From a virus: 64,000 nt of DNA. How positions within the stretch are numbered: position 1 is the stretch's first letter; every line of letters begins with the position of its first letter. Of the stretch, positions 22,238 to 62,298 are shown one piece after another. A program made the translations under genes and the position numbers. The stretch is taken from IMG/VR virus record IMGVR_UViG_3300033388_007730, positions 124,001 through 188,000 of that record. One strand, given 5' to 3'. The notes beneath the pieces are model-generated. The model was not told where the DNA came from. It was given only the letters and a program-made list of their open reading frames with translations, and made no database searches.

Positions 22238-22951
22238 ATGGAAGATACTATTATTATAGGAATGTCTGGTAAGAAACAATCTGGTAAAACTCTTTCTTGC
22301 GAAGATATTCAGAGAAAATATGGTCTATCACAATCTGCCAATTATCCTGTTACAACTATTTCTGCTACAGTAGCTCTATATAGTTTTGCTGATATGCTTA
22401 AACAAAAAGTATGTATGGATACTATGGGATTAACATATGAGCAATGTAATGGAACTAATGAACAAAAGAGCACTCCTACCAAATATAAATGGGAAAATTT
22501 ACCACGACAGATAAGATATGATAATAAATTGGGATCTAAATATGCATCTAATGGAGAAGTGTATCAACACATCTTACCAGAAGGATTTATGACTGCTAGA
22601 GAGATTTTACAGATAGTTGGGACAGACATATTTAGAAAGTATTTTGATGATGATATTTGGGTGAATGCTACTTTCAGAAAAATAGAGAAAGAGAAACCTA
22701 AAGTAGCAATTATTACAGATGCCAGGTTTCCAGGTGAGATCGACGCAATAATGAATAATGGTGGTTGTGTAATTCGTCTGTTAAGAGATGTCTGCGAAAG
22801 TGATTTTCATGAAAGTGAAACAGCATTAGATGATTATGATTTTACAAAGTGGGGAAATAGAGTTTGTATTATTGATAATCAACATATGAGTATAGAAGAA
22901 AAAAATGTTGTTGTATTTAAGTATCTAGAGGGAATAATCAAATGTCAATAA
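22238..22951 (+). CDS. Deoxynucleoside monophosphate kinase (T4 gp1-like)
   Basis: 237 residues. P-loop IGMSGKKQSGKT at the N-terminus, ADMLKQKVC as the helical nucleotide-binding part, MTAREILQIVGTDIFRKYF, VAIITDARFPGEIDAI and a C-terminal HESETALDDYDF. These match phage dNMP kinases that phosphorylate (sometimes modified) dNMPs to dNDPs. It feeds dNTP synthesis along with the dCMP deaminase and ThyX elsewhere in the window. It overlaps the clamp-loader gene by 10 bases. Confidence 0.85.
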   Translation: MEDTIIIGMSGKKQSGKTLSCEDIQRKYGLSQSANYPVTTISATVALYSFADMLKQKVCMDTMGLTYEQCNGTNEQKSTPTKYKWENLPRQIRYDNKLGSKYASNGEVYQHILPEGFMTAREILQIVGTDIFRKYFDDDIWVNATFRKIEKEKPKVAIITDARFPGEIDAIMNNGGCVIRLLRDVCESDFHESETALDDYDFTKWGNRVCIIDNQHMSIEEKNVVVFKYLEGIIKCQ

Positions 22952-25647
22952 ATGATTCATTAGCTGTAAAATATAGACCAGGTAAGTTGGATGATGTTAT
23001 CGGTCAACCAGTCGTTGTTAAAGCATTTAAAAATGCATTCAAATCTGAGACACTTCATCATGCTTATATTTTAGCGGGAAAATATGGTTGTGGGAAATGT
23101 GTAACAGGAGATACTCTTGTTTTAACCGATAAGGGATTGAAGCGTATCGATGATATTGTGCCGAAACAAACGGGTATATCTTCAATTGATGTTAAAATTG
23201 TAGATGAACAGGGAATGGGAAGAACTTTTTTTGGATATTACGAAGAAAATGTAGATACAAAAAGAGTTACAAATAATTTAGGAATAGAGATACAAGGGAC
23301 ATTAGAGCATCCTTTAAGAGTTTTTAATACTAATACTTGTAATATTGAGTGGAGGAATATTGGGGAGATTAAAAATGGAGATATCTTACCTATTTACAGA
23401 AATGAGTATTGTATAAAAAATAAAAAGACAGAGTTATTATCTAAAAGTAATATTTTGTTAGAACTTTATATGATAGACAAAACTAGAAATTTAAAAGATA
23501 AAGTTGTCTGTCCAATTTGTGAAAAAGAGTTTTTGCAGCTAAACACACATTTAAAAACACATGATATATCTCTAAGTAAATTCCGCAAAAAGTATGGAGA
23601 AGATTATCCTATTCATGGAAAGCAGTTTGCCATAAATAATATTAAGAAATCTATAAAATCTGTTACATTGCCAACTCACGTTAATGATGATTTCGCAAGA
23701 TTTATAGGATATTTATTATCAGAGGGTAACATTTATAATAATTCTATTATTTTTACCAATTCTGATAAAATAGTTTTAGACGATTACGAGAGAATTGTTT
23801 CGCGTTTATTCGGAGTTAAAATTGAAAAGAGCAAAGATAGTCGTAAAGAAAATTTGTATAACTATCGTATCCATTCGGCATTGTTAGTATTTTATCTGAA
23901 TAGAATAGGAGGCATTAATCTTGCATTAAAAGAGAAGTATATTCCTAAACAATTATTTAGCTGGGACCATAAATACATTGTTGAATTTTTAAAAGCTTTG
24001 TTTGAGGGGGATGGAGGGATCAACGGTAAAAGAGTATCTTATTATACAATAAGCAAAAGATTATCAAAAGAGATTCAGCAGCTATTGTTAAGTTTTGGGA
24101 TAGTGTCTTATTTAAGAAAAGAAACAAAAAAATATAATAACTGTGTGAGGAAGTTGGGGCATGTTGCTTATTCGGTTAATATTAGTGGTTTAGATTTAAA
24201 GAAATATTATGAAGTAATTAATTTTATTTCAAATATTAAAAAGAATAGTTTGTCATTAATAGCGAATAAAAATGAAACTAATAATGATACAATACCTGGA
24301 ATCGCAAAATTATCTCATAGTATTATTGATACTTTGGGCATTTCAAAAGCAGGTAAAATACAGGTGGGAGACAAATGGATAATCGCCCCGAAAAAGCCTA
24401 GTAATTTTTCTGTTATTGCTAAAAAAAATGGTAATATATCTTATAGTAAATTAAGAGAAATTATTTCATATTTAGAGAGTCTCAAAGATATTGTCTCTCA
24501 TAAGTATAGTGATAAAAAAACTTTTTATGAGTTTATAAGCATTATAGATATATGCAATGAATTGTATGATAAGAAATATTATTTTTCGAGAGTAACTTTT
24601 GTTGAAGGTGGGCTTAATACAAGTGTTTATGATATATGTAAAGATGGAGGAGACAAATCTTTTATAGCTAATGGATACATTAGCCACAATACAACAGTTG
24701 CCAGAATAATAGCTGCTATGGAAAATTGTGAGAAGAATGGAAAAGACCCTTGCGGTGAATGCAAAAATTGCAGAGATATATTGAGTGGTAATTCTATAGA
24801 GGTAATTGAACTTGATGCTGCTAGTCATGGTGGTGTTGATGATATAAGAGCAATACATAAAGATCTCTACCAAATGCCTATCTCTTGTAAAGTGAAATAT
24901 GTTATCATTGATGAGGCTCATTCATTAACTAAACAAAGTGCTGAAGCAGCATTAAAGATGATTGAAGAGCCTCCTGAGTTTGTGAGATTTGTACTATGTA
25001 CAACAGAACCACAATCATTTAAACCAACTATTCATAGCAGGTGTATAACTTGGAAATTCAATAGTGTCAGTTGGATGGAGATGATACCGCTATTAGAAAC
25101 TATTTGTTCAGAAGAGGGTATCTCTTTTGATCGTGAATCTTTATCTATAATTACGAAAGCTTCAAAGGGTTCTGTCAGGAATTCATTACAGAATTTACAG
25201 ACAGTTATGAATTACACTGGAACTAAGAAACTCTCTCCAGAAGAATGTAGGGAAGCATTAGGAGTAGTCAATTCTAAGCTGTATTCTGATTTGATTGATG
25301 GGATAATTGAAGTAAAGATAATGAATTGTTATAAAGTAATTGAAGAGATTTTGAAAGATGGAAAAGATATTGGTTTGATTATAGATGGTGTATATGAATA
25401 TTTGAATAATATTCTTGTGGTAAGAGCCTGCAAGAATGATTTATCACATTTCAATTTCAGTGATGCAGAGATTAAAAAATACATTAGTCAAGCAGCAGGG
25501 ATGGAAGGTGATATGGTTCTTAGAACAATGAATTTGATGAATAATTTAGCTTTTGGTGTTGAATATGGACTTAACCCTCAAGTGTTACTCAATAAATTTG
25601 TTACTGAAGCTATGCTTACTAATAAGAGGTTCATGAAAAAGAGATAA
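22942..25647 (+). CDS. dnaX: DNA polymerase III gamma/tau clamp-loader ATPase with intein
   Basis: 901 codons; removing the 531-residue intein leaves 370 residues. SINDSLAVKYRPGKLDDVIG is the standard DnaX N-terminus. The Walker A GKYGCGK-TT is cut by the intein between Lys and Thr. Then come the four-cysteine zinc module (CEKNGKDPCGECKNC), Walker B VIIDEAHSL and the sensor motif HSRC. The protein would load the beta clamp encoded at 27558 with the delta subunit at 28834. It is short, like a gamma form, with no tau extension. It cannot bind ATP before splicing. Confidence 0.95.
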   Translation: MSINDSLAVKYRPGKLDDVIGQPVVVKAFKNAFKSETLHHAYILAGKYGCGKCVTGDTLVLTDKGLKRIDDIVPKQTGISSIDVKIVDEQGMGRTFFGYYEENVDTKRVTNNLGIEIQGTLEHPLRVFNTNTCNIEWRNIGEIKNGDILPIYRNEYCIKNKKTELLSKSNILLELYMIDKTRNLKDKVVCPICEKEFLQLNTHLKTHDISLSKFRKKYGEDYPIHGKQFAINNIKKSIKSVTLPTHVNDDFARFIGYLLSEGNIYNNSIIFTNSDKIVLDDYERIVSRLFGVKIEKSKDSRKENLYNYRIHSALLVFYLNRIGGINLALKEKYIPKQLFSWDHKYIVEFLKALFEGDGGINGKRVSYYTISKRLSKEIQQLLLSFGIVSYLRKETKKYNNCVRKLGHVAYSVNISGLDLKKYYEVINFISNIKKNSLSLIANKNETNNDTIPGIAKLSHSIIDTLGISKAGKIQVGDKWIIAPKKPSNFSVIAKKNGNISYSKLREIISYLESLKDIVSHKYSDKKTFYEFISIIDICNELYDKKYYFSRVTFVEGGLNTSVYDICKDGGDKSFIANGYISHNTTVARIIAAMENCEKNGKDPCGECKNCRDILSGNSIEVIELDAASHGGVDDIRAIHKDLYQMPISCKVKYVIIDEAHSLTKQSAEAALKMIEEPPEFVRFVLCTTEPQSFKPTIHSRCITWKFNSVSWMEMIPLLETICSEEGISFDRESLSIITKASKGSVRNSLQNLQTVMNYTGTKKLSPEECREALGVVNSKLYSDLIDGIIEVKIMNCYKVIEEILKDGKDIGLIIDGVYEYLNNILVVRACKNDLSHFNFSDAEIKKYISQAAGMEGDMVLRTMNLMNNLAFGVEYGLNPQVLLNKFVTEAMLTNKRFMKKR
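23098..24690 (+). mobile_element. Intein with LAGLIDADG endonuclease and a C2H2-like finger, in the clamp-loader P-loop
   Basis: 531 residues beginning CVTGDTLVLT, block B as TLEH, ending GYISHN, with Thr at +1. LAGLIDADG motifs are FIGYLLSEG and FLKALFEGDG. Between block B and the endonuclease, about residue 190 of the precursor, there is CPICEKEFLQLNTHLKTH, a C2H2-like zinc finger followed by a helical KFRKKYGEDYP. It may be a DNA-recognition module. The insertion site in the Walker A motif of a clamp loader is a known hot spot for inteins. Confidence 0.92.
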
Positions 25648-32800: not shown

Positions 32801-32950
32801 ATGAAAGAATATAAAAGCAAAAAATACATTAAGATGAATGCTAAAGTTGGCAGCTCTAAGAACAATAATATAAAGCCAATCAAAATAGAACCGAAAAAAA
32901 CAAAGCGAGTTAAATCCAGTTGTGGTGGATGCTCTAGAAGGACAAGATAA
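32801..32950 (+). CDS. Small basic protein with CGGC motif (49 aa)
   Basis: ATG at 32801, a few bases after the previous stop. The product is lysine-rich with VKSSCGGCSRRTR at its C-terminus; the two cysteines may bind metal or form a disulfide. It overlaps the possible GTG starts of the CCA-adding gene in another frame. No homologue recognised. Confidence 0.55.
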   Translation: MKEYKSKKYIKMNAKVGSSKNNNIKPIKIEPKKTKRVKSSCGGCSRRTR

Positions 32951-32951
32951 A

Positions 32952-35588
32952 TTGGATAGACCTACTATAATCAAAATTTTATCTAAGTTTAGATATTTAT
33001 TCCAAGATTTATCTTATGGAGAAGATGCGGTTATGCAAAAGATAACTAACTATCTTCCTTCTAATCATATGGTATTTCCATGCGATGTAATAGATTTGAG
33101 AAAAATACTTATAGATGAAGAAATAAAATTTGATGATTATATACCATTGTTCTCTAAAAGATTTGCTGAGAGTTTTTTAAAAAGATATGCTCTGTTTCTG
33201 GTGATTGATATAAGAAAGATTGATAAGGATAGTTTTAAATATGGTGGTTTGTGTATTTTAAGAGACAATGAGTTAGATATTAGTGACTCTTTAATAAGGA
33301 TAGTAGTTAACAAACAGGCAGCTAATAATACTTTTAATGTGGTGCAAAATATGATGCAAGAATTGAACAAATATGTAGAATGTGTGGTAGAGAATAGTGT
33401 TCCTGGAATGAGTTCTCCTGCCCCTATATTATCATCTAGGAAGATAGTATTTAAAGCAGCTCAGAATGTTGAGTCTGAATTGTCTTTAGACCCGAAAGAA
33501 AAAAATATATTTGATTTTCTTAGAAGGGTTAAAAAAGATTATAATCTTCCTGTTCAGATGAGAGTAGCTGGTGGATGGGTTAGAGATAAATTGCTTGGCA
33601 AAGAAAGTGATGATATAGACATAGCTGTTAATATGCCAGGTTATGATTTTGCTAAGATAGTAGCAGATGCTGCTGTTAAATATAATGTAACGCATGACCC
33701 TAAAGCATACAAGGTTAGTTTAGAAAAATCAAAAGATCCTAGTGAAAAGACTCCTAATGATAGTCTTTTAGTAGGTGCAGTTTATCTTTTCGGGCAGAAA
33801 ATAGAATTTGTTCCTATGAGAACAGAACATTATCCTGATCCTGATAGCAGGCAACCAGAAATAACTAATACTAATGATCCTAGAGAAGATGTTAAAAGAA
33901 GAGATTTAACTATAAATTCTCTTTACTACAATGTTGATACTGGCAAAGTAGAAGATTATGTTGGTGGAAGAAAAGATTTGGGAGTAGACGGAAATGGAAC
34001 TATACTTCTAAGGACTCCTGATGATGCTTATAAAACATTTCATGAAGATCCTTTGAGATTATTGAGAGTTTTGAGATTCCACAGCCGTTATCCTAATAGC
34101 GTAATAGATCCTTCAGTCGTAGAAGCTATGAAAAATCCAGAAGTGCAAGCTTCTTATGCTAGAAAAGTTTCTACAGAGAGAGCTGGACCAGAATTGATAA
34201 AAATGTTATCAGGAGCAAATCCTGTAGATTCTTTAAGATTGTTATTTGAGAGTGGTTTATACAAACAGGTTTTTGATGTTCCTTCTATGAAGAATATAAA
34301 TGAAGAAGGAATAATGATGGATCAAAGAAGTCCTTATCATGAAAAAAGTTTGTCAGATCATACTCTAGACGTTGTGAAGTACTTGAATGAGAAAATGAGT
34401 AATGAGGGTGAAAGTGATTTAATGAGAGGATTGATGAATTTTGCTGCTATGTTCCATGATTTTGGGAAAATGAGTAACAAGGTTGCAAGACCACATAAAA
34501 ATCCAAGATTCGAAGGTCATACTACTTATGTAGGTCATGAAAATGAATCTGAAACTATGGCAGAAGAAATAATGAATTCTATAGGACTTAAGGATTATCA
34601 AAAAAAGATAGTTAAAGCAGTCGTTAAATCCCATATGTTCCCTCATAAGTTCACTGGTTGGGCTGATTCTTGGGCTAAGAAGAAAAAAATATGGAAAGGC
34701 AATGAGGGTCCAGGTAAATTTATGGAGAATCTAAAATTAAAAGGTTTAGATCAAAAGACTAGAGGATTAGAAGAAGATGATGAAGAAGTTATAGATAAGT
34801 CTGCTGACCTTTGGAAGTATGTTCATTATCATGCTGAGGCTGATTCTAAGGCTGGTAAAACTGGGAAGCATGATGAAGGGGAAACAGAGAGAGGTAGACA
34901 GTGGTTTGAAAATTATTACAATGATCCAGCTATAGAATTCACCAGAACGAGAGGTTCTGTCATAGATGGCAATACGATAAAAAATCTTGTTGAAGAAATT
35001 AGTGGATTAGAACAGCAAAAAAGGGATCCTACTCGAACTAAATTGAAAGTTGAAATAACACCTAATGTTATATCATTTGTGCAAAAAAGAATAGCTGATA
35101 TGCAATATAGGCGTTTGATACCTCTTGATTTCGCGGCTATGGAAGAGGGTCCAGAGAAAGAGTCGTCTTTAATAAATTCTCAAAATAGAGCTGCTAATCA
35201 AGCTAGGCAAATAATCAAAAGTAATTTAGATAAATATTTAAAAATAACTCCAATTGAAGGAGAGACTACAATGAGTACTAGTTGGTATGATAAAATAAAA
35301 ACATCTAATACGATATCTAAACCTTTGCCAGTTCCTCAGGAAGAAGATCCTGAAGTTCATAAGGGGCCACAACCCATGGAGGCAAAATATCAAAAAGGCA
35401 TGAGGGTTAGAGATAGAAGAAAGGGTTTGGTAGTCCCTCAGGATTTTGGAGTTGTTTATTCTATTAATAATAATACTAATATTATGATAATACTATGGAA
35501 TCCTGATAATAAAGAAAAGAAAAGAGAAGAGAAATTTGATATGGTTGAAGATACCGAAAAGTTGTCATTGATAGTGGCGGAGGTTTAA
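32952..35588 (+). CDS. cca: CCA-adding enzyme / poly(A) polymerase-like protein with HD domain and long extensions
   Basis: About 878 residues if translation starts at TTG 32952 (AAGGAC nine bases upstream); GTG at 32922 is the alternative. Residues 1-195 are unassigned. From about 203 the class II nucleotidyltransferase head appears as RVAGGWVRDKLLGKESDDID, with two catalytic aspartates, then RRDLTINSLYYN and LLRVLRFHSRYP. An HD phosphohydrolase motif (MFHDFGKM) is at about 500, preceded by YHEKSLSDHTLDVV. The enzyme adds CCA to tRNA 3' ends. The window's tmRNA lacks an encoded CCA and would need this. The protein is roughly twice the usual length. Confidence 0.88.
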   Translation: MDRPTIIKILSKFRYLFQDLSYGEDAVMQKITNYLPSNHMVFPCDVIDLRKILIDEEIKFDDYIPLFSKRFAESFLKRYALFLVIDIRKIDKDSFKYGGLCILRDNELDISDSLIRIVVNKQAANNTFNVVQNMMQELNKYVECVVENSVPGMSSPAPILSSRKIVFKAAQNVESELSLDPKEKNIFDFLRRVKKDYNLPVQMRVAGGWVRDKLLGKESDDIDIAVNMPGYDFAKIVADAAVKYNVTHDPKAYKVSLEKSKDPSEKTPNDSLLVGAVYLFGQKIEFVPMRTEHYPDPDSRQPEITNTNDPREDVKRRDLTINSLYYNVDTGKVEDYVGGRKDLGVDGNGTILLRTPDDAYKTFHEDPLRLLRVLRFHSRYPNSVIDPSVVEAMKNPEVQASYARKVSTERAGPELIKMLSGANPVDSLRLLFESGLYKQVFDVPSMKNINEEGIMMDQRSPYHEKSLSDHTLDVVKYLNEKMSNEGESDLMRGLMNFAAMFHDFGKMSNKVARPHKNPRFEGHTTYVGHENESETMAEEIMNSIGLKDYQKKIVKAVVKSHMFPHKFTGWADSWAKKKKIWKGNEGPGKFMENLKLKGLDQKTRGLEEDDEEVIDKSADLWKYVHYHAEADSKAGKTGKHDEGETERGRQWFENYYNDPAIEFTRTRGSVIDGNTIKNLVEEISGLEQQKRDPTRTKLKVEITPNVISFVQKRIADMQYRRLIPLDFAAMEEGPEKESSLINSQNRAANQARQIIKSNLDKYLKITPIEGETTMSTSWYDKIKTSNTISKPLPVPQEEDPEVHKGPQPMEAKYQKGMRVRDRRKGLVVPQDFGVVYSINNNTNIMIILWNPDNKEKKREEKFDMVEDTEKLSLIVAEV
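35271..35588 (+). CDS. Possible internally started product within the CCA-adding gene
   Basis: An in-frame ATG at 35271 lies seven bases after AAGGAGAG, a strong ribosome binding site inside the coding sequence. The 105-residue product begins MSTSWYDKIK, like two neighbouring small proteins, and has a small beta domain (YQKGMRVRDRRKGLVV, NIMIILWN). It may be an originally separate gene fused by loss of a stop codon, or be made both alone and as a fusion. Confidence 0.4.
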   Translation: MSTSWYDKIKTSNTISKPLPVPQEEDPEVHKGPQPMEAKYQKGMRVRDRRKGLVVPQDFGVVYSINNNTNIMIILWNPDNKEKKREEKFDMVEDTEKLSLIVAEV

Positions 35589-41012: not shown

Positions 41013-41405
41013 ATGAATTTTAAAGATATAATAAAAAAATATAGAGACAGGAATAAAAGCACAATATCTTCTGACAATGTGTCTCATGAGATGAATGCCA
41101 TTGTGCTTTATTCAACGTCTAATGCTCTATTTGATTTTAATGGTGTTATGATTGATGATGTTATGTCTTATGGCAAATCTAAGGGATACAACATAGATAA
41201 AATTGTTTTTCTTACCTCATATGATATAGAATTTACTGATGAGAATAAAGGTGTTAAAAAAGTAGACGATAATTCAATTAGGATTAGTCAGAATTATAGG
41301 ATGAAAAGTGATGCCAAAATAAGTATTATAGAAGAAGATGGAAAAGTAATTGCCAGGGTTTTTATGGGATCTTATATTATTGTAGGTAAAATACGTGAAA
41401 AATAA
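41013..41405 (+). CDS. Protein of unknown function
   Basis: 130 residues beginning MNFKDIIKKYRDRNKST, with beta strands in the C-terminal half (KISIIEEDGKVIARVFMGS). No family recognised. It starts three bases after the glycosyltransferase and overlaps the histidine kinase start by 11 bases. Confidence 0.65.
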   Translation: MNFKDIIKKYRDRNKSTISSDNVSHEMNAIVLYSTSNALFDFNGVMIDDVMSYGKSKGYNIDKIVFLTSYDIEFTDENKGVKKVDDNSIRISQNYRMKSDAKISIIEEDGKVIARVFMGSYIIVGKIREK

Positions 41406-42861
41406 AATATCAAAAAAACGGTGGTTTTCTGAGGTAGTTCTGTATAATATGCGGGAGTCTATAATAATTACGAATGTCGATGGAGTAATAATTTATGTGA
41501 ACAAAGCAACAGAAAAATTATTTGGTTATACTGAAAAAGAAATGATAAATCAGAAACCAATAATGGTTAATGCTGAACCTGATGCAGAGAAAATCCAGGA
41601 ATCTATTTTAGAGGCTATGCTATGTGATGGGGAATGGAAAGGGCAGTTGCTTAATAGGAAAAAAAATGGTGATTTATTCACAGTTGAATTAACAATATGT
41701 CTTCTAAAAGATCTATATGATAACTTAGTTGGTTTTATAGGATATCAAAAAGATGTGACAAAAGCACTTAAGGCATCCAAGAAGATAAAAGAGAGTGAAG
41801 AGAAGTTTAGAAAAATTTTTCAAAATTCTCCTATGGGTATGCACTTGTATCAATTAAACATGGATGATGAGTTAGTTTTAATAGACTCTAATCCTGCTGC
41901 TGATGATTTTACAGGTATTAACACTGTTGATTTTATCGGAAAAACTCTCGAAGAAGCTTTTCCAGTTTTAATCGGTACAGAGATTCATGAAAGATACAAA
42001 ATGGCAGCTTCTAAAGGTATCTCTTGGAATACATCTTCTTTTACATACAAAGATGAAAGAATAAATGGTATTTATGATATATGGGCATATCAAATTTCAC
42101 GTAATCGTGTATTAGTACAGTTTGTTGAAGTAGTTAAGAGAGAACACGTTGAAGAGGAATTAAGAAATAGAAATCAAGAGTTAGAACAATTCGCATATGT
42201 AGCTTCTCATGACCTACAAGAACCATTGAGAGTAGTATCTAATTATTGTGAGATGTTGAGTGATAAATGCAAAACTTGTCCAAGAAGAGATAAAGATACT
42301 GAAAAGTGGTTGGAATATATAACGGAAGCTATTGATAGAATGAAAAATTTAATAAGGGAGTTATTGGATTTTTCTAGGGTAGGAAGAAAAGATAAATCAT
42401 TTGAGAGTTGTAATATAGGAGACATAATAGAAGATGTTAAAGATGATTTCAAGATATTGATAAAAGAGACTGATGCTGTTATAAAAGTAGAAGAGAACAT
42501 GCCATCAATAAATTGTATCGAATTCAGAATTAGACAATTATTTTATAATTTGATAAGTAATGCTATAAAATTTAGGGGAAAGAAAAAACCGCATATAGAT
42601 ATAAGCTTTTATAAAGAAGATGACGAATATGTATTTTGTGTTAAAGATAATGGGATAGGAATTTCACCAAAATATTTTGATAGAATCTTTGGAATATTTA
42701 AGAGATTGTATTCTAGAGAAGAATATCCTGGTACAGGAATAGGTCTTGCTTTATGTAAGAAAATAGTAGAAACTCATAATGGCAGAATATGGGTTGATTC
42801 TAAAGAGAATAAAGGGGCTTCTTTTTATTTTACCCTTTCTACAGTATTAGAAAGTGATTAA
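41395..42861 (+). CDS. PAS-PAS sensor histidine kinase
   Basis: 488 residues, no transmembrane segment, so a cytosolic sensor. PAS 1 spans about 15-130 (IIITNVDGVIIYVNKATEKL, LVGFIGYQKDVT), PAS 2 about 140-245. The DHp helix has FAYVASHDLQEPLRVV with phosphoacceptor His272. The ATPase domain shows the N box (LFYNLISNAIKF, about 383), G boxes DNGIGIS and GTGIGLALC. All key residues are intact. Start is GTG 41395 (MKNKISKKRW); ATG is unavailable nearby. Two response regulators lie 2.3 kb downstream on the opposite strand. Confidence 0.9.
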   Translation: MKNKISKKRWFSEVVLYNMRESIIITNVDGVIIYVNKATEKLFGYTEKEMINQKPIMVNAEPDAEKIQESILEAMLCDGEWKGQLLNRKKNGDLFTVELTICLLKDLYDNLVGFIGYQKDVTKALKASKKIKESEEKFRKIFQNSPMGMHLYQLNMDDELVLIDSNPAADDFTGINTVDFIGKTLEEAFPVLIGTEIHERYKMAASKGISWNTSSFTYKDERINGIYDIWAYQISRNRVLVQFVEVVKREHVEEELRNRNQELEQFAYVASHDLQEPLRVVSNYCEMLSDKCKTCPRRDKDTEKWLEYITEAIDRMKNLIRELLDFSRVGRKDKSFESCNIGDIIEDVKDDFKILIKETDAVIKVEENMPSINCIEFRIRQLFYNLISNAIKFRGKKKPHIDISFYKEDDEYVFCVKDNGIGISPKYFDRIFGIFKRLYSREEYPGTGIGLALCKKIVETHNGRIWVDSKENKGASFYFTLSTVLESD

Positions 42862-49512: not shown

Positions 49513-50559
49513 ATGTTACTTACAAGAGAACAATTTAGAAATGGAGTACTTGAGAGAGATAACAATCAGTGTGTTATCTGCGGAAGCTCTACAGATCTTG
49601 TGGCACATCACATTATGGAGAGAAGATTATTTGAAGATGGTGGATACTACATTTCAAATGGTAGCACACTCTGCGAAGAACATCATATTCTTGCTGAGCA
49701 AACTGTTTTGTCTTGTGAAGAGATTAGAGAAGCAGCAGGAATTACAGATATTGTTTTACCTCCTCATCTGTATCAAGATACTAAGTATGAAAAATGGAGT
49801 AACATCATACTCTCTGATGGTCGTAGGTTAAAAGGTGAGTTGTTCTTTGATGAGTCTGTTCAGAAGATACTTAAAGCAGGCGATGTATTAAAGCATTTTT
49901 GCAAATATGTCAAATATCCAAGAACCTGGCATCTCTCACACAGTCATAAGGTTCATCGTAATGATATGCAGTTAGATTCTAATAAACAGTTTAATGGCAA
50001 GAAAGTAGTAGTCACTATTAAGATGGATGGTGAAAACACCACAATGTATAATAACTATCTTCATGCTCGTTCAGTTGATAGTGCTAATCACCCTACAAGA
50101 GGTTGGGTTAAAAGAATACATGCTGAGATGGGATGGAATATTCCTGAAGGTTGGAGAGTCTGTGCTGAGAATATGTATGCTAAACACACTGTTGAATATG
50201 AGAACCTTGAATCTTATCTTCTTGTTTTTTCTATATGGAATGAAAAGAATGAGTGTTTGTCATGGGATGATACTATTGAATGGGCAGAACTGTTAGAACT
50301 TTCTATGACTCCTGTTCTTTATGTGGGAGAATGGGATGAAAAAAAGATTCATTCTTTATGCCCAAAAGAATATAATGGAGATAAAGTTGAAGGATATGTG
50401 GTCCGTTTATTTGAATCTTTTACATATGGGGATTTCAGAAAATCAGTAGCCAAATATGTGAAGCCAGAATTTGCAGATCAACTCGGAACTGGGAGCAGCC
50501 ACTGGAAGTATAAAAAGATAATTCCCAACAAATTACAAAAGAAAGTTGTTGAAAAGTGA
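49513..50559 (+). CDS. HNH domain fused to an RNA ligase-like nucleotidyltransferase
   Basis: 348 residues. The first 60 form an HNH-type zinc module (CVICGSS, VAHHIMERR, LCEEHH). From about 165 come ligase motifs: KMDGENTT (motif I, adenylated Lys170), WRVCAENMY (motif III-like), VEGYVVRL (IV) and VAKYVKP (V). This is the ATP-dependent RNA ligase/nick-sealing fold, so repair of tRNA breaks is the likely job. The HNH fusion could provide cleavage or binding. It starts one base after the previous stop. Confidence 0.85.
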   Translation: MLLTREQFRNGVLERDNNQCVICGSSTDLVAHHIMERRLFEDGGYYISNGSTLCEEHHILAEQTVLSCEEIREAAGITDIVLPPHLYQDTKYEKWSNIILSDGRRLKGELFFDESVQKILKAGDVLKHFCKYVKYPRTWHLSHSHKVHRNDMQLDSNKQFNGKKVVVTIKMDGENTTMYNNYLHARSVDSANHPTRGWVKRIHAEMGWNIPEGWRVCAENMYAKHTVEYENLESYLLVFSIWNEKNECLSWDDTIEWAELLELSMTPVLYVGEWDEKKIHSLCPKEYNGDKVEGYVVRLFESFTYGDFRKSVAKYVKPEFADQLGTGSSHWKYKKIIPNKLQKKVVEK

Positions 50560-57195: not shown

Positions 57196-59568
57196 ATGGA
57201 AGATATAAATATCAAATCATTATTACAAGGTGGAATTCGTAAAGATCCAGAAGATGATAGAGATTTTATTTTTACAACACCACATATTCCTGATCATACT
57301 GTCTTGGGAAGTGCTGATTCTATTCCATTAAAAATAGATCATTCTAATAAGATGGGTTCGGTTAAGTTTCAAGGTGCGTTAGGATGCCATGATATTAGAA
57401 CAGAAATACTTACAGAAAAAGGTTGGAAACTATTTAAAGATTTGGATAAAGAAGAAAAAGTAGCTACCGTTAATCCTAATACCCATGAAATTGAATATCA
57501 AGAGCCAATTAATTATTTAGAATATGATTATGAAGGAGATATGTATTATTTTCACCATAAAAGTGGATTAGATGCTATGGTTACTCCTAATCATAAGATG
57601 TATGTCAAGAAATGGGATAATAAAAATATGACATTAAAAGAAGAATTTGAATTCATTGAAGCACAAAATATGGGTTGGTATTCTGGATTGTTGACAAAAA
57701 TTGATTGGGATGGGATCTCTCCCAAAACAATGAAAATGCCAGATGTTGAGATAGGACAAAGAAATGGAAGCAAAAAACAATCTATAAGAATAGGTAAAGA
57801 AATTGATACTACTAATTTCATTACATTTTTGGGATTATATTTAGCAGAGGGCTGTTGTTATCGTCCTGAGGGTAGTGGATCTTACAGAATTGAGATCGCC
57901 GCTAGTGACAATAATGATAGGAAAAATGAAGTTATTGAAATTATTGATGATTTGCCGTATAAATATACTATTTATCATGATAGGATAACAATATGGAATA
58001 AATCTTTATATACATTTCTTAAGCCTTTTGGGAATGTTTATACTAAGTCAGTACCAAGATTTGTTATGGATTTGAATAAAAAGGATATCGCTGCATTTAT
58101 GTATGGTTATTATTTAGGAGATGGATCTTTTCATGATAATGGGGCAAGGACAGGGTATTCGGTATCTGAACATTTAATTGATGATCTTCAAGAACTATCT
58201 TTGAAAATAGGGGTATATAGTAGGAAAAAAAGTAGATCACCTAGAATTGCATATATTAAAGGTAGAAAAATTTTTGGTAAAGAAAGTTATGAACTTCATG
58301 AAAGACAAATAGATACGAAGTTGTCGATAGATAGAAATAAATATTCATCCAAAGTTCCATATAATAATAAAGTATATTGTGTAGAAGTCCCTAATCACAT
58401 ACTTATTACTAGAAGGGGTGGTTGTATTCTAATTTCTGGCAATTCGTGCGTAGCGTTTGCAGCTTGTGCTTTAAAAGAGTGGCAAGAAACAATAGAACAT
58501 GAAAAGGAAGTTTTGGCAGGGAAAAAAGATCATAGAGAAGGTAAAGAATATAATTTGTCTGAACAGTGGATTTATTGGAATTGTAAAAAAATAGATCCAT
58601 GGCCTAATTCTGAAGGAACAAATCTGAGATCAGCTATGAGAGTATTAAATAAGATTGGAGTTCCTACCGAACAAGCTTGGGGTTACACTGATGATAAGGT
58701 GAACATTGGTGAACCTGAAAGCTGGGCATATATGATAGCAAGGTGGAATTTAATAGGGTCTTATTGGAGAATATCAGGATTAGATCAAATTAAAAAAGCA
58801 TTGATCGAGAGTCCTATTATTATTGGGATGGCTTGTTTTAGAGAAATGTATGGTAATTTAGAACATGGTTTAATACCTTATCCTGCTAATCCTGGAGAAG
58901 TAATGTCTCATCATGCTGTTTGTGTTGTTGGTTATGATGAAGAGAAAAAACTCTTAAAATTTAAAAATAGTTGGTCTAAGTTCTGGGGAGATGTTGGTTA
59001 TGGATATATACCTTATGATTATGTAAGAGATTTTGTATGGGATGCGTGGATTGCTAGAGATATTAGTGTAACTCATGAAATGCTTGAAGGTACTAGATTA
59101 TTGGTAGGTGCAGATGTACCAACAGTAATAGAGATAGCTGAGACACCACTTATACAAAAAGATACAGAAGAGAATTTTTCTTTTGTAGGATTTAAGTATC
59201 CTTCTCTTTTAGATACTTTTTCTATTATTAAAGATATTTTTGGAGTTCCAGAAATAGAGATATTTAGAGCTTCTAAAAAGGTGGGAGTTAAATTAGAAGA
59301 TTCTTCATCTATTAACTTATTCTGTAAAAAATATTTTGCTGAGTTTAGAAAAGAATCTGTAAAGAAATATGGATTTGAAGTCGATGTTATTAAAGTGGAT
59401 GATGAATATCCAATTATTGGTATTTGTTTGTGTGAAAAAGAAATTAGTGATAAATTTGATGAAAATCAGATAAAGATAGAAGATGTAATGAAAAAAGTGG
59501 TTGGCATGAGAGATATATTGGCTCTTGGCAAAGATATAATAATTTACAATGGTGTGAGAAAATATTAA
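57196..59568 (+). CDS. Papain-like (C1A) cysteine protease with intein at the catalytic site
   Basis: 790 codons; after removal of the 353-residue intein, 437 remain. The mature junction reads QGALG-SCVAFA, where Cys is the catalytic residue. Late in the sequence come SHHAVCVVGYD, with the catalytic His, and KFKNSWSKFWGDVGYGYIPY, with the Asn. These are diagnostic of family C1A. The region before the junction (RKDPEDDRDFIF) resembles the propeptide-like N-terminus of phage and bacterial C1A proteases. The intein separates the first part of the active-site loop from the nucleophile, so the enzyme is active only after splicing. Confidence 0.93.
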   Translation: MEDINIKSLLQGGIRKDPEDDRDFIFTTPHIPDHTVLGSADSIPLKIDHSNKMGSVKFQGALGCHDIRTEILTEKGWKLFKDLDKEEKVATVNPNTHEIEYQEPINYLEYDYEGDMYYFHHKSGLDAMVTPNHKMYVKKWDNKNMTLKEEFEFIEAQNMGWYSGLLTKIDWDGISPKTMKMPDVEIGQRNGSKKQSIRIGKEIDTTNFITFLGLYLAEGCCYRPEGSGSYRIEIAASDNNDRKNEVIEIIDDLPYKYTIYHDRITIWNKSLYTFLKPFGNVYTKSVPRFVMDLNKKDIAAFMYGYYLGDGSFHDNGARTGYSVSEHLIDDLQELSLKIGVYSRKKSRSPRIAYIKGRKIFGKESYELHERQIDTKLSIDRNKYSSKVPYNNKVYCVEVPNHILITRRGGCILISGNSCVAFAACALKEWQETIEHEKEVLAGKKDHREGKEYNLSEQWIYWNCKKIDPWPNSEGTNLRSAMRVLNKIGVPTEQAWGYTDDKVNIGEPESWAYMIARWNLIGSYWRISGLDQIKKALIESPIIIGMACFREMYGNLEHGLIPYPANPGEVMSHHAVCVVGYDEEKKLLKFKNSWSKFWGDVGYGYIPYDYVRDFVWDAWIARDISVTHEMLEGTRLLVGADVPTVIEIAETPLIQKDTEENFSFVGFKYPSLLDTFSIIKDIFGVPEIEIFRASKKVGVKLEDSSSINLFCKKYFAEFRKESVKKYGFEVDVIKVDDEYPIIGICLCEKEISDKFDENQIKIEDVMKKVVGMRDILALGKDIIIYNGVRKY
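57385..58443 (+). mobile_element. Intein with LAGLIDADG endonuclease (in cysteine protease)
   Basis: 353 residues from Cys (CHDIRTEILT) to GN (CILISGN), with Ser at +1. The penultimate residue is Gly instead of His. Block B is VTPNH, LAGLIDADG motifs are FLGLYLAEG and FMYGYYLGDG. The intein ends one residue before the catalytic Cys of the protease. Inserted at the start of the most conserved loop of the family. Confidence 0.92.
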
Positions 59569-59576
59569 AAAAAGTG

Positions 59577-59604
59577 TTGATATTTGTATTTTTTCTGCTA
59601 TAAT
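59577..59604 (+). promoter_or_regulatory. Sigma-70 promoter of the tmRNA gene
   Basis: TTGATA at 59577-59582, 16-base spacer, TGCTATAAT with TATAAT at 59599-59604. Transcription would start near 59611, about 20 bases before the mature tmRNA, in line with a 5' leader trimmed by RNase P. Confidence 0.82.
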
Positions 59605-59629: not shown

Positions 59630-60011
59630 GGGGACGACAGGATTGACTGGATAGGTAGAAAATTGAATTGCATGTCAGAGATGGTAGTTGGCTCTGTAAA
59701 AAATCTACTAAAAAGTTTAATTGCAAACAGTTACGCAATGGCTGCTTAAGCAGCAGGAGGGTGGCATAGCCTACCTTCCACCGATGTCTGTAAGGGAGTT
59801 TCCTGCTGGAACTTACAGGCTAATTTAGGCAGGATAGCCGAGAAACATTTTCTCATGGTGTGATTGGCGACAAGTCCCGATAAGGGGATGAGATAGCGAA
59901 AGTTAGGGTTAGTCCGTTGTTCCTAACATAGTGAAAAAAAAACAACGGACTATACATGTAGATGTTTGATTTGAAATATCACAGGACGAGGCTTCAATGC
60001 CTCCGTCTCCA
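59630..60011 (+). ncRNA. ssrA: tmRNA (transfer-messenger RNA)
   Basis: 382 bases. The 5' end GGGGACG pairs with CGTCTCC at 60004-60010 to form a 7-bp acceptor stem with G3-U70, the alanine identity signal, and discriminator A. A T-arm-like hairpin (GAGGC/GCCTC, TTCAAT loop of six) precedes it. The tag frame starts at 59723: GCA AAC AGT TAC GCA ATG GCT GCT TAA, giving ANSYAMAA. The stop lies in a GCTGCTTAAGCAGC hairpin, as in bacterial tmRNAs. The 3' end is not CCA (ATTA follows). It rescues stalled ribosomes and tags nascent proteins for proteolysis. Confidence 0.95.
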
Positions 60012-60041
60012 TTATGATGAAGTTTTTTTAAGGATGTAATA

Positions 60042-60594: not shown

Positions 60595-60966
60595 ATGAGT
60601 AGAACGTATCGAAGAGATGCAGTTGTATTAGACTGTAATTGTGGCGCACCTGTAGGATCTCATTGGAGATTTTTTTGGAGACCAGGATCTATTACTCCTA
60701 ATAGGGAAATAGATATAGAACTTAGAAGATCTCGTAGTAGAGGATTACCACCAGATAGAATGTGTCATTGTTGGACTAATAAACAATATGATTTTTATTC
60801 TAAAAGAAATTACAAGAGAGATCATAAATCTTGGCGTAAATGTAACAGAACTTGGAAAAAGATTTATCAAAAGAAACGTAGAGCCAGGATTAGAGCAGCA
60901 ATGAGTCATAAGGATTATGAGAATATTCCTAAATTCAGAAAGGAAAATGACTGGAATTGGATTTAA
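60595..60966 (+). CDS. Basic Cys/Trp-rich protein of unknown function
   Basis: 123 residues with CNCGAPVGSHWRFFWRPG, four cysteines, and an Arg/Lys-rich tail (YQKKRRARIRAAMSH). A zinc-stabilised nucleic-acid-binding protein is plausible. TAGGAG lies upstream. Closed by the terminator at 60989. Confidence 0.6.
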   Translation: MSRTYRRDAVVLDCNCGAPVGSHWRFFWRPGSITPNREIDIELRRSRSRGLPPDRMCHCWTNKQYDFYSKRNYKRDHKSWRKCNRTWKKIYQKKRRARIRAAMSHKDYENIPKFRKENDWNWI

Positions 60967-61082: not shown

Positions 61083-61700
61083 ATGAAAGATGGAATAAAA
61101 AATGAAGAAGTTCTTTCAGAAGAACAACAAAAACTCATATCTAAAAATATGGGACTTTTAGATGCTTTTTACAAGACTGAGATAGGAAAAGGGTATATCC
61201 CTGATCAAAAAAAAGATGATTTTTTCAGTAATCTTCAACAGAGATTTTGTAATGCTGCTCTTAAATATAATGAAGATGCTGGGTTTAAGTTTAGTACTTT
61301 TGCTTATGGTAGTTTTATTTTTTGTGCAGCAGAAATGAAAAAAAAGCTTTTCAGAGACAGAAAAGTTTTTACTGGTAATGATAAGAAATTTGTTTCATAT
61401 GGAAAAAAATCTGTTTGGAATTCTATAAATGGATGGGATGTTGATTCTGTTATCAATTATGAAAAGGTAGTTAATCTTGTAAATAAAGTTCCTTTATCTG
61501 AAAAAGAAAGAACAGTAATTAATTTTTATTATTTTGAGGGTCTTACTCTTTTAGAAACAGGAAAAAAATTGGGACTCTCCAGACAAAGAATAAAACAAAT
61601 AACATTAGAAGCTATTTATAAAATTAAGAGATTTGCTGATAGAAGAGATTATAGAATAGGAGATTTTGTTAAGTATGGTGAAGGGTTTGTAAATGGCTAG
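61083..61700 (+). CDS. Sigma-70 family RNA polymerase factor
   Basis: 205 residues. Region 2 is seen as FCNAALKYNEDAGFKFSTFAYGSF, and region 4 as LSEKERTVINFYYFEGLTLLETGKKLGLSRQRIKQI. This is a compact two-region factor. It overlaps a second factor by 8 bases. It may recognise the TTGAAAGTGA promoter class in phage infection, including its own. Confidence 0.88.
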   Translation: MKDGIKNEEVLSEEQQKLISKNMGLLDAFYKTEIGKGYIPDQKKDDFFSNLQQRFCNAALKYNEDAGFKFSTFAYGSFIFCAAEMKKKLFRDRKVFTGNDKKFVSYGKKSVWNSINGWDVDSVINYEKVVNLVNKVPLSEKERTVINFYYFEGLTLLETGKKLGLSRQRIKQITLEAIYKIKRFADRRDYRIGDFVKYGEGFVNG

Positions 61701-62298
61701 ACCTTATGGAGGACACTATTTAACAGAAGAGCAGAAGAAATTAGCAGGAGATAATCTCCCTCTTGTCTGGTGGTTCATAAGTAAGTATGCATTGACAAAA
61801 GGAGTTATTCAAGTTCATGAAATAGATGAATGTTCTGGTTATTTGATTTGGCATCTGTGTATGTCTGCTGAAGCTTATGATCCTGATAGAGGCGTTAAAT
61901 TTAGTAGCTATGCTGTGAAAGGAATGTGGAGCGGATTACATATTTATTTAAATCTTAGAAATAAGCGTATTAATAGATTTATATCAACTGACTGGACTAT
62001 GCAGGGCAATGACGGAGCCATGTCTAATGAACCAGAATATAAGTCTAAAGCAGAGAGGACCATTAAGTGGAAAGATATTAAATCTTTATTTGATATCATA
62101 ACCATGAGTCCATTAGAAGAGCAAATTGTTTTCTTCACTTATGAGAAAAAATATTCTGCTAAACGGGTAGGAGACATTGTAGGTTTAACAGGAGAACGTA
62201 TCAGACAGCTTAAAGTAATAATAATTGATAAAATAAAAATTGCTGTTAAGGAAAATAATGTTTCGATAGAAGATTTTATTATGGATGATAAGGAATAG
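61693..62298 (+). CDS. Sigma-70 family factor, divergent
   Basis: 201 residues. Region 2 is VHEIDECSGYLIWHLCMSAEAYDPDRGVKFSSYAVKGMW, region 4 LEEQIVFFTYEKKYSAKRVGDIVGLTGERIRQL. Adjacent sigma genes are rare, so the two may be paralogues that act on different promoters, or one may be an anti-sigma-like partner. It overlaps the XRE-like gene's alternative start. Confidence 0.85.
   Translation: MARPYGGHYLTEEQKKLAGDNLPLVWWFISKYALTKGVIQVHEIDECSGYLIWHLCMSAEAYDPDRGVKFSSYAVKGMWSGLHIYLNLRNKRINRFISTDWTMQGNDGAMSNEPEYKSKAERTIKWKDIKSLFDIITMSPLEEQIVFFTYEKKYSAKRVGDIVGLTGERIRQLKVIIIDKIKIAVKENNVSIEDFIMDDKE

Follow-up and report, generated by a model that had tools for sequence, protein, structure and literature searches.

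A one-piece tmRNA with a six-nucleotide T loop conserved in a clade of huge phages

Results

The tmRNA locus and its structural parts

The window, the whole stretch of 64,000 nucleotides that was analysed, covers positions 124001-188000 of a virus record of 219,188 bases (IMG/VR IMGVR_UViG_3300033388_007730, here G000), a linear sequence that may be incomplete. The original prediction had described this as a phage-like genome, and the recognised genes of the record agree: they include a DnaB-like helicase, a DNA polymerase, a UvsX-like recombinase, an intein-bearing clamp loader, a topoisomerase and sigma-like factors. PHROGs recognised no structural hallmark protein among the proteins scanned, the largest of which are without a PHROG family match. 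The part of the window of primary interest here comprises the following features:

57196-59568, +: papain-like cysteine protease carrying an intein-like LAGLIDADG insertion (PF00112, E 2.1e-11; PF14528)
59577-59604, +: candidate sigma-70-like promoter 25 nt ahead of the tmRNA: TTGATA-16-TATAAT, the -10 being preceded by TG (agrees with the consensus at 11 of 12 positions; such sites number 2 against 2.0 expected, a count not above chance)
59630-60011, +: one-piece tmRNA (ssrA), from the 5' end to the discriminator A (RF00023; homologues in G001 and G002)
59630-59636, +: 5' strand of the acceptor stem, GGGGACG, with its partner at 60004-60010 and a G3-U70 pair (sequence)
59676-59709, +: pseudoknot PK1, CAGAG/CTCTG and GGTAG/CTACT (in-register helix comparison)
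59723-59749, +: tag frame GCA AAC AGT TAC GCA ATG GCT GCT TAA, encoding ANSYAMAA-stop (sequence)
59741-59754, +: P5 hairpin GCTGC-TTAA-GCAGC enclosing the tag stop codon (sequence)
59786-59834, +: pseudoknot PK2, GTCTGTAAG/CTTACAGGC and TCCTGCT/GGCAGGA (covaries in relatives)
59902-59952, +: pseudoknot PK4, GTTAGG/CCTAAC and a 12-bp helix TAGTCCGTTGTT/AACAACGGACTA (helix comparison)
59988-60003, +: T arm GAGGC-TTCAAT-GCCTC, with a 6-nt loop and a C53-G61 closing pair (sequence)

In a cmscan of the whole window against Rfam, the sole match is a full-model match to the tmRNA family RF00023 (model positions 1-374; 59630-60014 on the plus strand), which at 108 bits stands well above the gathering score of 47 (E 2.9e-41); there is no riboswitch match. 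The covariance model and the sequence itself thus bear out the prediction, at these very positions, of a full tmRNA with G3-U70, a tag frame and a stop hairpin. The acceptor stem GGGGACG/CGTCTCC forms 7 pairs, G3-U70 included, and with the A73 discriminator presents the alanine identity set. The resume codon GCA (59723-59725), preceded by TTTAATT, opens a tag that runs through 59746 and is closed by a TAA stop at 59747-59749. Covariation supports PK1, PK2 and PK4, and PK3 was assigned by inspection only. Two other tmRNA-related forms were considered: a permuted two-piece tmRNA (RF04321) is ruled out by the collinear and full RF00023 match, and a decoy RNA of the DS6A type, consisting only of the tRNA-like domain (TLD), by the complete tag frame and the pseudoknots.

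Some other genes of the window deserve mention. LAGLIDADG or intein-like insertions occur in three of them, namely a GDP-mannose dehydratase-like gene (495-2504), the clamp loader (22942-25647) and the papain-like protease (57196-59568). A histidine kinase with a PAS domain is encoded on this phage genome at 41395-42861 (+), and two neighbouring sigma-70-region-4-like proteins (61083-61700 and 61693-62298, both +) lie directly downstream of the tmRNA region.

Conservation in related viral contigs

Searches with the papain-like protease and with the CCA-adding enzyme encoded in the window recovered relatives, among which the viral contigs G001 (548 kb) and G002 (351 kb) carry tmRNAs scoring 105.6 and 124.7 bits; GNNYAMAA and GNSYAMAA are the tags of this pair. 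The papain-like protease gene adjoins the tmRNA upstream in both of these as well (loci L014 and L013, respectively; 58-60% identity), and the place of the tmRNA is therefore conserved; downstream of the G001 tmRNA there is also a gene resembling the one at 60595-60966 of the window. A scan for the tag pattern added the viral contigs G003, G004 and G006, which have the same tmRNA with the tag GNSYAMAA, and G005, with ANNYAMAA.

We compared seven helices between the window, G001 and G002, in register by script, since a MAFFT alignment has PK4 misregistered by one base. All 132 cells are paired, and 18 of the 44 pairs, mostly in PK2 and PK4, are changed on both sides; this is a small sample of three sequences with helices picked for pairing, so that it is the double changes that carry the information. 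The G3-U70 pair is kept in all three. Changes in the tag between the viral contigs are either synonymous (TAC/TAT, GCT/GCC) or limited to S/N and A/G replacements, and the YAMAA end is invariant. This pattern is as expected if both the tmRNA and its tag are functional, and because the place, the helices and the tags are all kept in G001 and G002, the comparison points to a conserved working gene.

The tmRNAs of this phage clade score 106-125 bits, well under the 175-202 bits of bacterial tmRNAs with similar tags. BLASTN recovered no nucleotide match to the tmRNA in 50,697 phage records, and an exact search of IMG/VR with the window's own tag region returned none. The tmRNA is hence new in being without a close match among isolated phages, while phage tmRNAs as such are already known (PMC4131195; PMC7162821; PMC9004378; PMC11915505).

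The tag and the unencoded CCA are ordinary among bacteria

The original prediction had singled out the eight-codon tag ending in AMAA as unusual, a view that did not survive comparison with bacteria. The N[NS]YAMAA-stop pattern was found in 105 stretches, from which 80 bacterial loci were listed. Most of the listed tags from Bacteroidota are of the 9-codon form GENNYAMAA, which is common there, and the 8-codon forms GNNYAMAA, ANNYAMAA, DNNYAMAA and ENNYAMAA occur in metagenome-assembled genomes labelled Deltaproteobacteria, Zixibacteria, Ignavibacteria, Bacteroidetes, Oligoflexia and Bdellovibrionales. Among bacterial tags at large a length of 10 amino acids is the most frequent, and tags of 2 amino acids are also known (PMC11915505).

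As for the 3' end, the discriminator A60011 is followed by TTA, and the predicted need for CCA addition after transcription stands. Its absence from the gene is nothing special: most of the similar-tag bacterial tmRNA genes likewise do not encode CCA, and no encoded CCA end was seen in some forty tRNA genes read from the G001 and G002 loci. Accordingly, both the tag and the missing CCA were rejected as special features. Because this type of tag and the absent CCA occur in bacteria, and the phage has its own CCA-adding enzyme, we read the tag as host-like and not as a device for a different kind of degradation, contrary to the suggestion that it might steer the degradation of stalled products.

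A contracted elbow widespread among viral tmRNAs

The T arm of tmRNAs usually has a 5-bp stem and a 7-nt loop, the latter length being usual rather than strictly defining. The window tmRNA has a 6-nt T loop (TTCAAT) closed by C53-G61, and its D segment is one base short ahead of GG. This form recurs in G001 and G002, so that the 6-nt loop and C53-G61 are present in three of three clade members. All of the similar-tag bacterial tmRNAs with a cleanly readable T arm (about 70; L044 and L089, whose odd readings do not represent clean T arms, were left out) have a 7-nt loop and G53-C61. A T-arm scan of IMG/VR led us to reject a restriction of the short loop to this clade, as at least 25 one-piece and at least 57 permuted viral tmRNA candidates fit the pattern, most matches having the pairing stem; Rfam confirms the candidates L151 and L174 as one-piece and L150 as permuted (RF04321). 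No true case was found in 369 genomes of one phylum (that of G007), where three bacterial pattern matches are attributable to chance, lacking the T-stem pairing and any tmRNA match. Thus, the 6-nt T loop is common in viral tmRNAs and marks a variant, not an exclusion from the tmRNA family. More generally, a contracted elbow, in the form of the 6-nt T loop with C53-G61 and often a short D segment, is present in many phage tmRNAs and in none of the sampled similar-tag bacterial ones. Six of the one-piece candidates from IMG/VR that share the 6-nt loop (L151, L177, L179, L185, L210 and L222) have a different tag frame, which is longer and ends in NALTGxTQLALAA or similar.

ARAGORN did not find the tmRNA in the window, probably on account of the 6-nt T loop; phage tmRNA counts from ARAGORN alone are consequently probably too low.

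One could propose that the changed elbow reflects a tRNA-like domain selected in phages, which still works with the host SmpB and alanyl-tRNA synthetase (AlaRS) while escaping the host nucleases and modifying enzymes that act on tRNA-like RNAs, and which forms a set with two enzymes encoded in the same window, the RNA ligase and the CCA-adding enzyme. The distribution of the loop, with all three clade members and scores of other viral candidates on one side, and none of the readable similar-tag bacterial tmRNAs or of the genomes of the sampled phylum on the other, is in keeping with such resistance. Yet, the 6-nt T loop may be normal in unsampled host lineages, such as those with permuted tmRNAs, the clade's phage tRNAs have T loops of the ordinary kind, and we know of no nuclease that would be evaded. 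On balance, we regard this proposal as unlikely.

RNA-repair enzymes and rescue partners

Two genes of the window upstream of the tmRNA encode RNA-processing enzymes:

32922-35588, +: CCA-adding enzyme (tRNA nucleotidyltransferase), 888 aa (phrog_2244, E 7.8e-45; PF01743, E 1.5e-25)
49513-50559, +: RNA ligase (PF09414, E 2.9e-27)

The motifs GGWVRD, DDID, RRDLTIN and EDPLRLLR of the CCA-adding enzyme are intact. It is encoded in all five large contigs (the window's record and the relatives in G001-G004) and was not seen in the short contigs G005 and G006. The N-terminal part of the RNA ligase, which shares the window with the CCA-adding enzyme and the tmRNA, is HNH- or zinc-like by eye. No tRNA was found in the G000 record, either by ARAGORN (on the window and the rest of the record) or with RF00005. 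The claim of a CCA-adding enzyme without tRNAs was dropped, as tRNA matches number 27 and 31 in the relatives, and as the 219-kb record may be incomplete.

No SmpB was found in any of the three records tested (G000, G001 and G002), and the function of the tmRNA would therefore depend on the SmpB of the host. This absence, along with the departure of the T loop from the bacterial form, would also suit a decoy, in which the phage RNA titrates host SmpB or EF-Tu and thereby blocks host trans-translation; there is a precedent in mycobacteriophage DS6A, which encodes a TLD-only tmRNA, a similar molecule being inhibitory to tmRNA (PMC4131195; PMC11915505). However, a decoy could do without a tag frame, stop hairpin and pseudoknots, yet all of them are kept here with compensatory changes, making this explanation quite improbable.

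Discussion

Taking together the structure, tag frame, conservation and CCA-adding enzyme observed here, we consider it likely that this one-piece tmRNA, encoded by a clade of huge phages, is functional and maintains ribosome rescue during infection. The full-length RF00023 match, the shared place, the covariation, the conserved tag of a bacterial type, the CCA-adding enzyme and the RNA ligase all count in its favor; against it count the absence of SmpB, the score lower than those of bacterial tmRNAs, the short T loop, which at one base short could weaken some tRNA-like contacts, and the promoter count at chance. While ssrA is often an integration site of mobile elements and ssrA fragments are seen in prophages (PMC9004378), a captured host gene or integration remnant now without function is very improbable and disfavored for an RNA that is full length rather than a fragment, sits at a shared position in three huge phages that have diverged, and displays covariation and synonymous tag changes; nor did an integrase come to notice in the general annotation.

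For the functional tmRNA, we infer the following course of expression, charging, tagging and benefit. The RNA would be transcribed from its own promoter and trimmed at its ends, a CCA-adding enzyme of the phage itself (or of the host) would put on the CCA, and alanine would be charged by virtue of G3-U70. Together with host SmpB and EF-Tu, it would then enter ribosomes stalled on broken mRNAs, where the nascent chain would gain (A)ANSYAMAA and the UAA stop would free the ribosome, the tagged product passing to host proteases which recognise A-A at the C terminus. The benefit would lie in ribosomes being kept in use while phage takeover or host defence cuts mRNA and tRNA. Both the RNA ligase and the CCA-adding enzyme agree with the sets for RNA repair described in jumbo phages, and so suggest a tmRNA that helps translation persist when RNAs are cut. 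The proposal in the original prediction that it could protect translation is probably right as regards support of translation during infection.

There are several parallels to this tmRNA among known systems. First, the curated tmRNA database holds 79 unique phage sequences (PMC11915505) and tmRNA has been reported in 402 of 18,146 phage genomes (PMC9004378). Those of the mycobacteriophages Bxz1, Wildcat and others, of Bacillus phage G and of the huge phages of Al-Shayeb et al. are likewise full tmRNAs on large phage genomes; the window's differs from them in its tag, and in that SmpB, which has been reported among huge phages (PMC7162821), was not found here. Second, the bacterial one-piece [ADEG]NNYAMAA tmRNAs have the same tag length and ending, with a tag region that reaches 94% identity over 32 nt, but differ in their 7-nt T loop, G53-C61 and much higher covariance scores. 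Third, the permuted tmRNA of Melnitz and pelagiphages is also a phage tmRNA, and the 6-nt T loop recurs in permuted viral candidates of this general type, whereas the window gene is one-piece and the window is without a riboswitch match. Fourth, the DS6A RNA and the present one both provide a phage-carried tRNA-like domain, to which the latter adds a whole mRNA-like region, a tag and pseudoknots. Finally, the window has both the RNA ligase and the CCA-adding enzyme of the jumbo-phage RNA-repair sets (PMC7824862), an account whose main text does not mention tmRNA. To these systems our analysis adds a conserved syntenic tmRNA of huge phages without detectable SmpB but with a CCA-adding enzyme, and the purpose of phage tmRNA thereby becomes testable as part of a translation-maintenance set.

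A further observation concerns some 230 nt of conserved non-coding sequence that lies between the promoter and the tmRNA in G002 (L013:1240-1490) and G001 (L014:1850-2130, minus). It has no match in Rfam or in the window's record, is 83% identical over 96 nt between the two contigs, and has a core, TTTAATAAAYRGTGGGTATAAAA, which within IMG/VR is confined to the G001 and G002 contigs.
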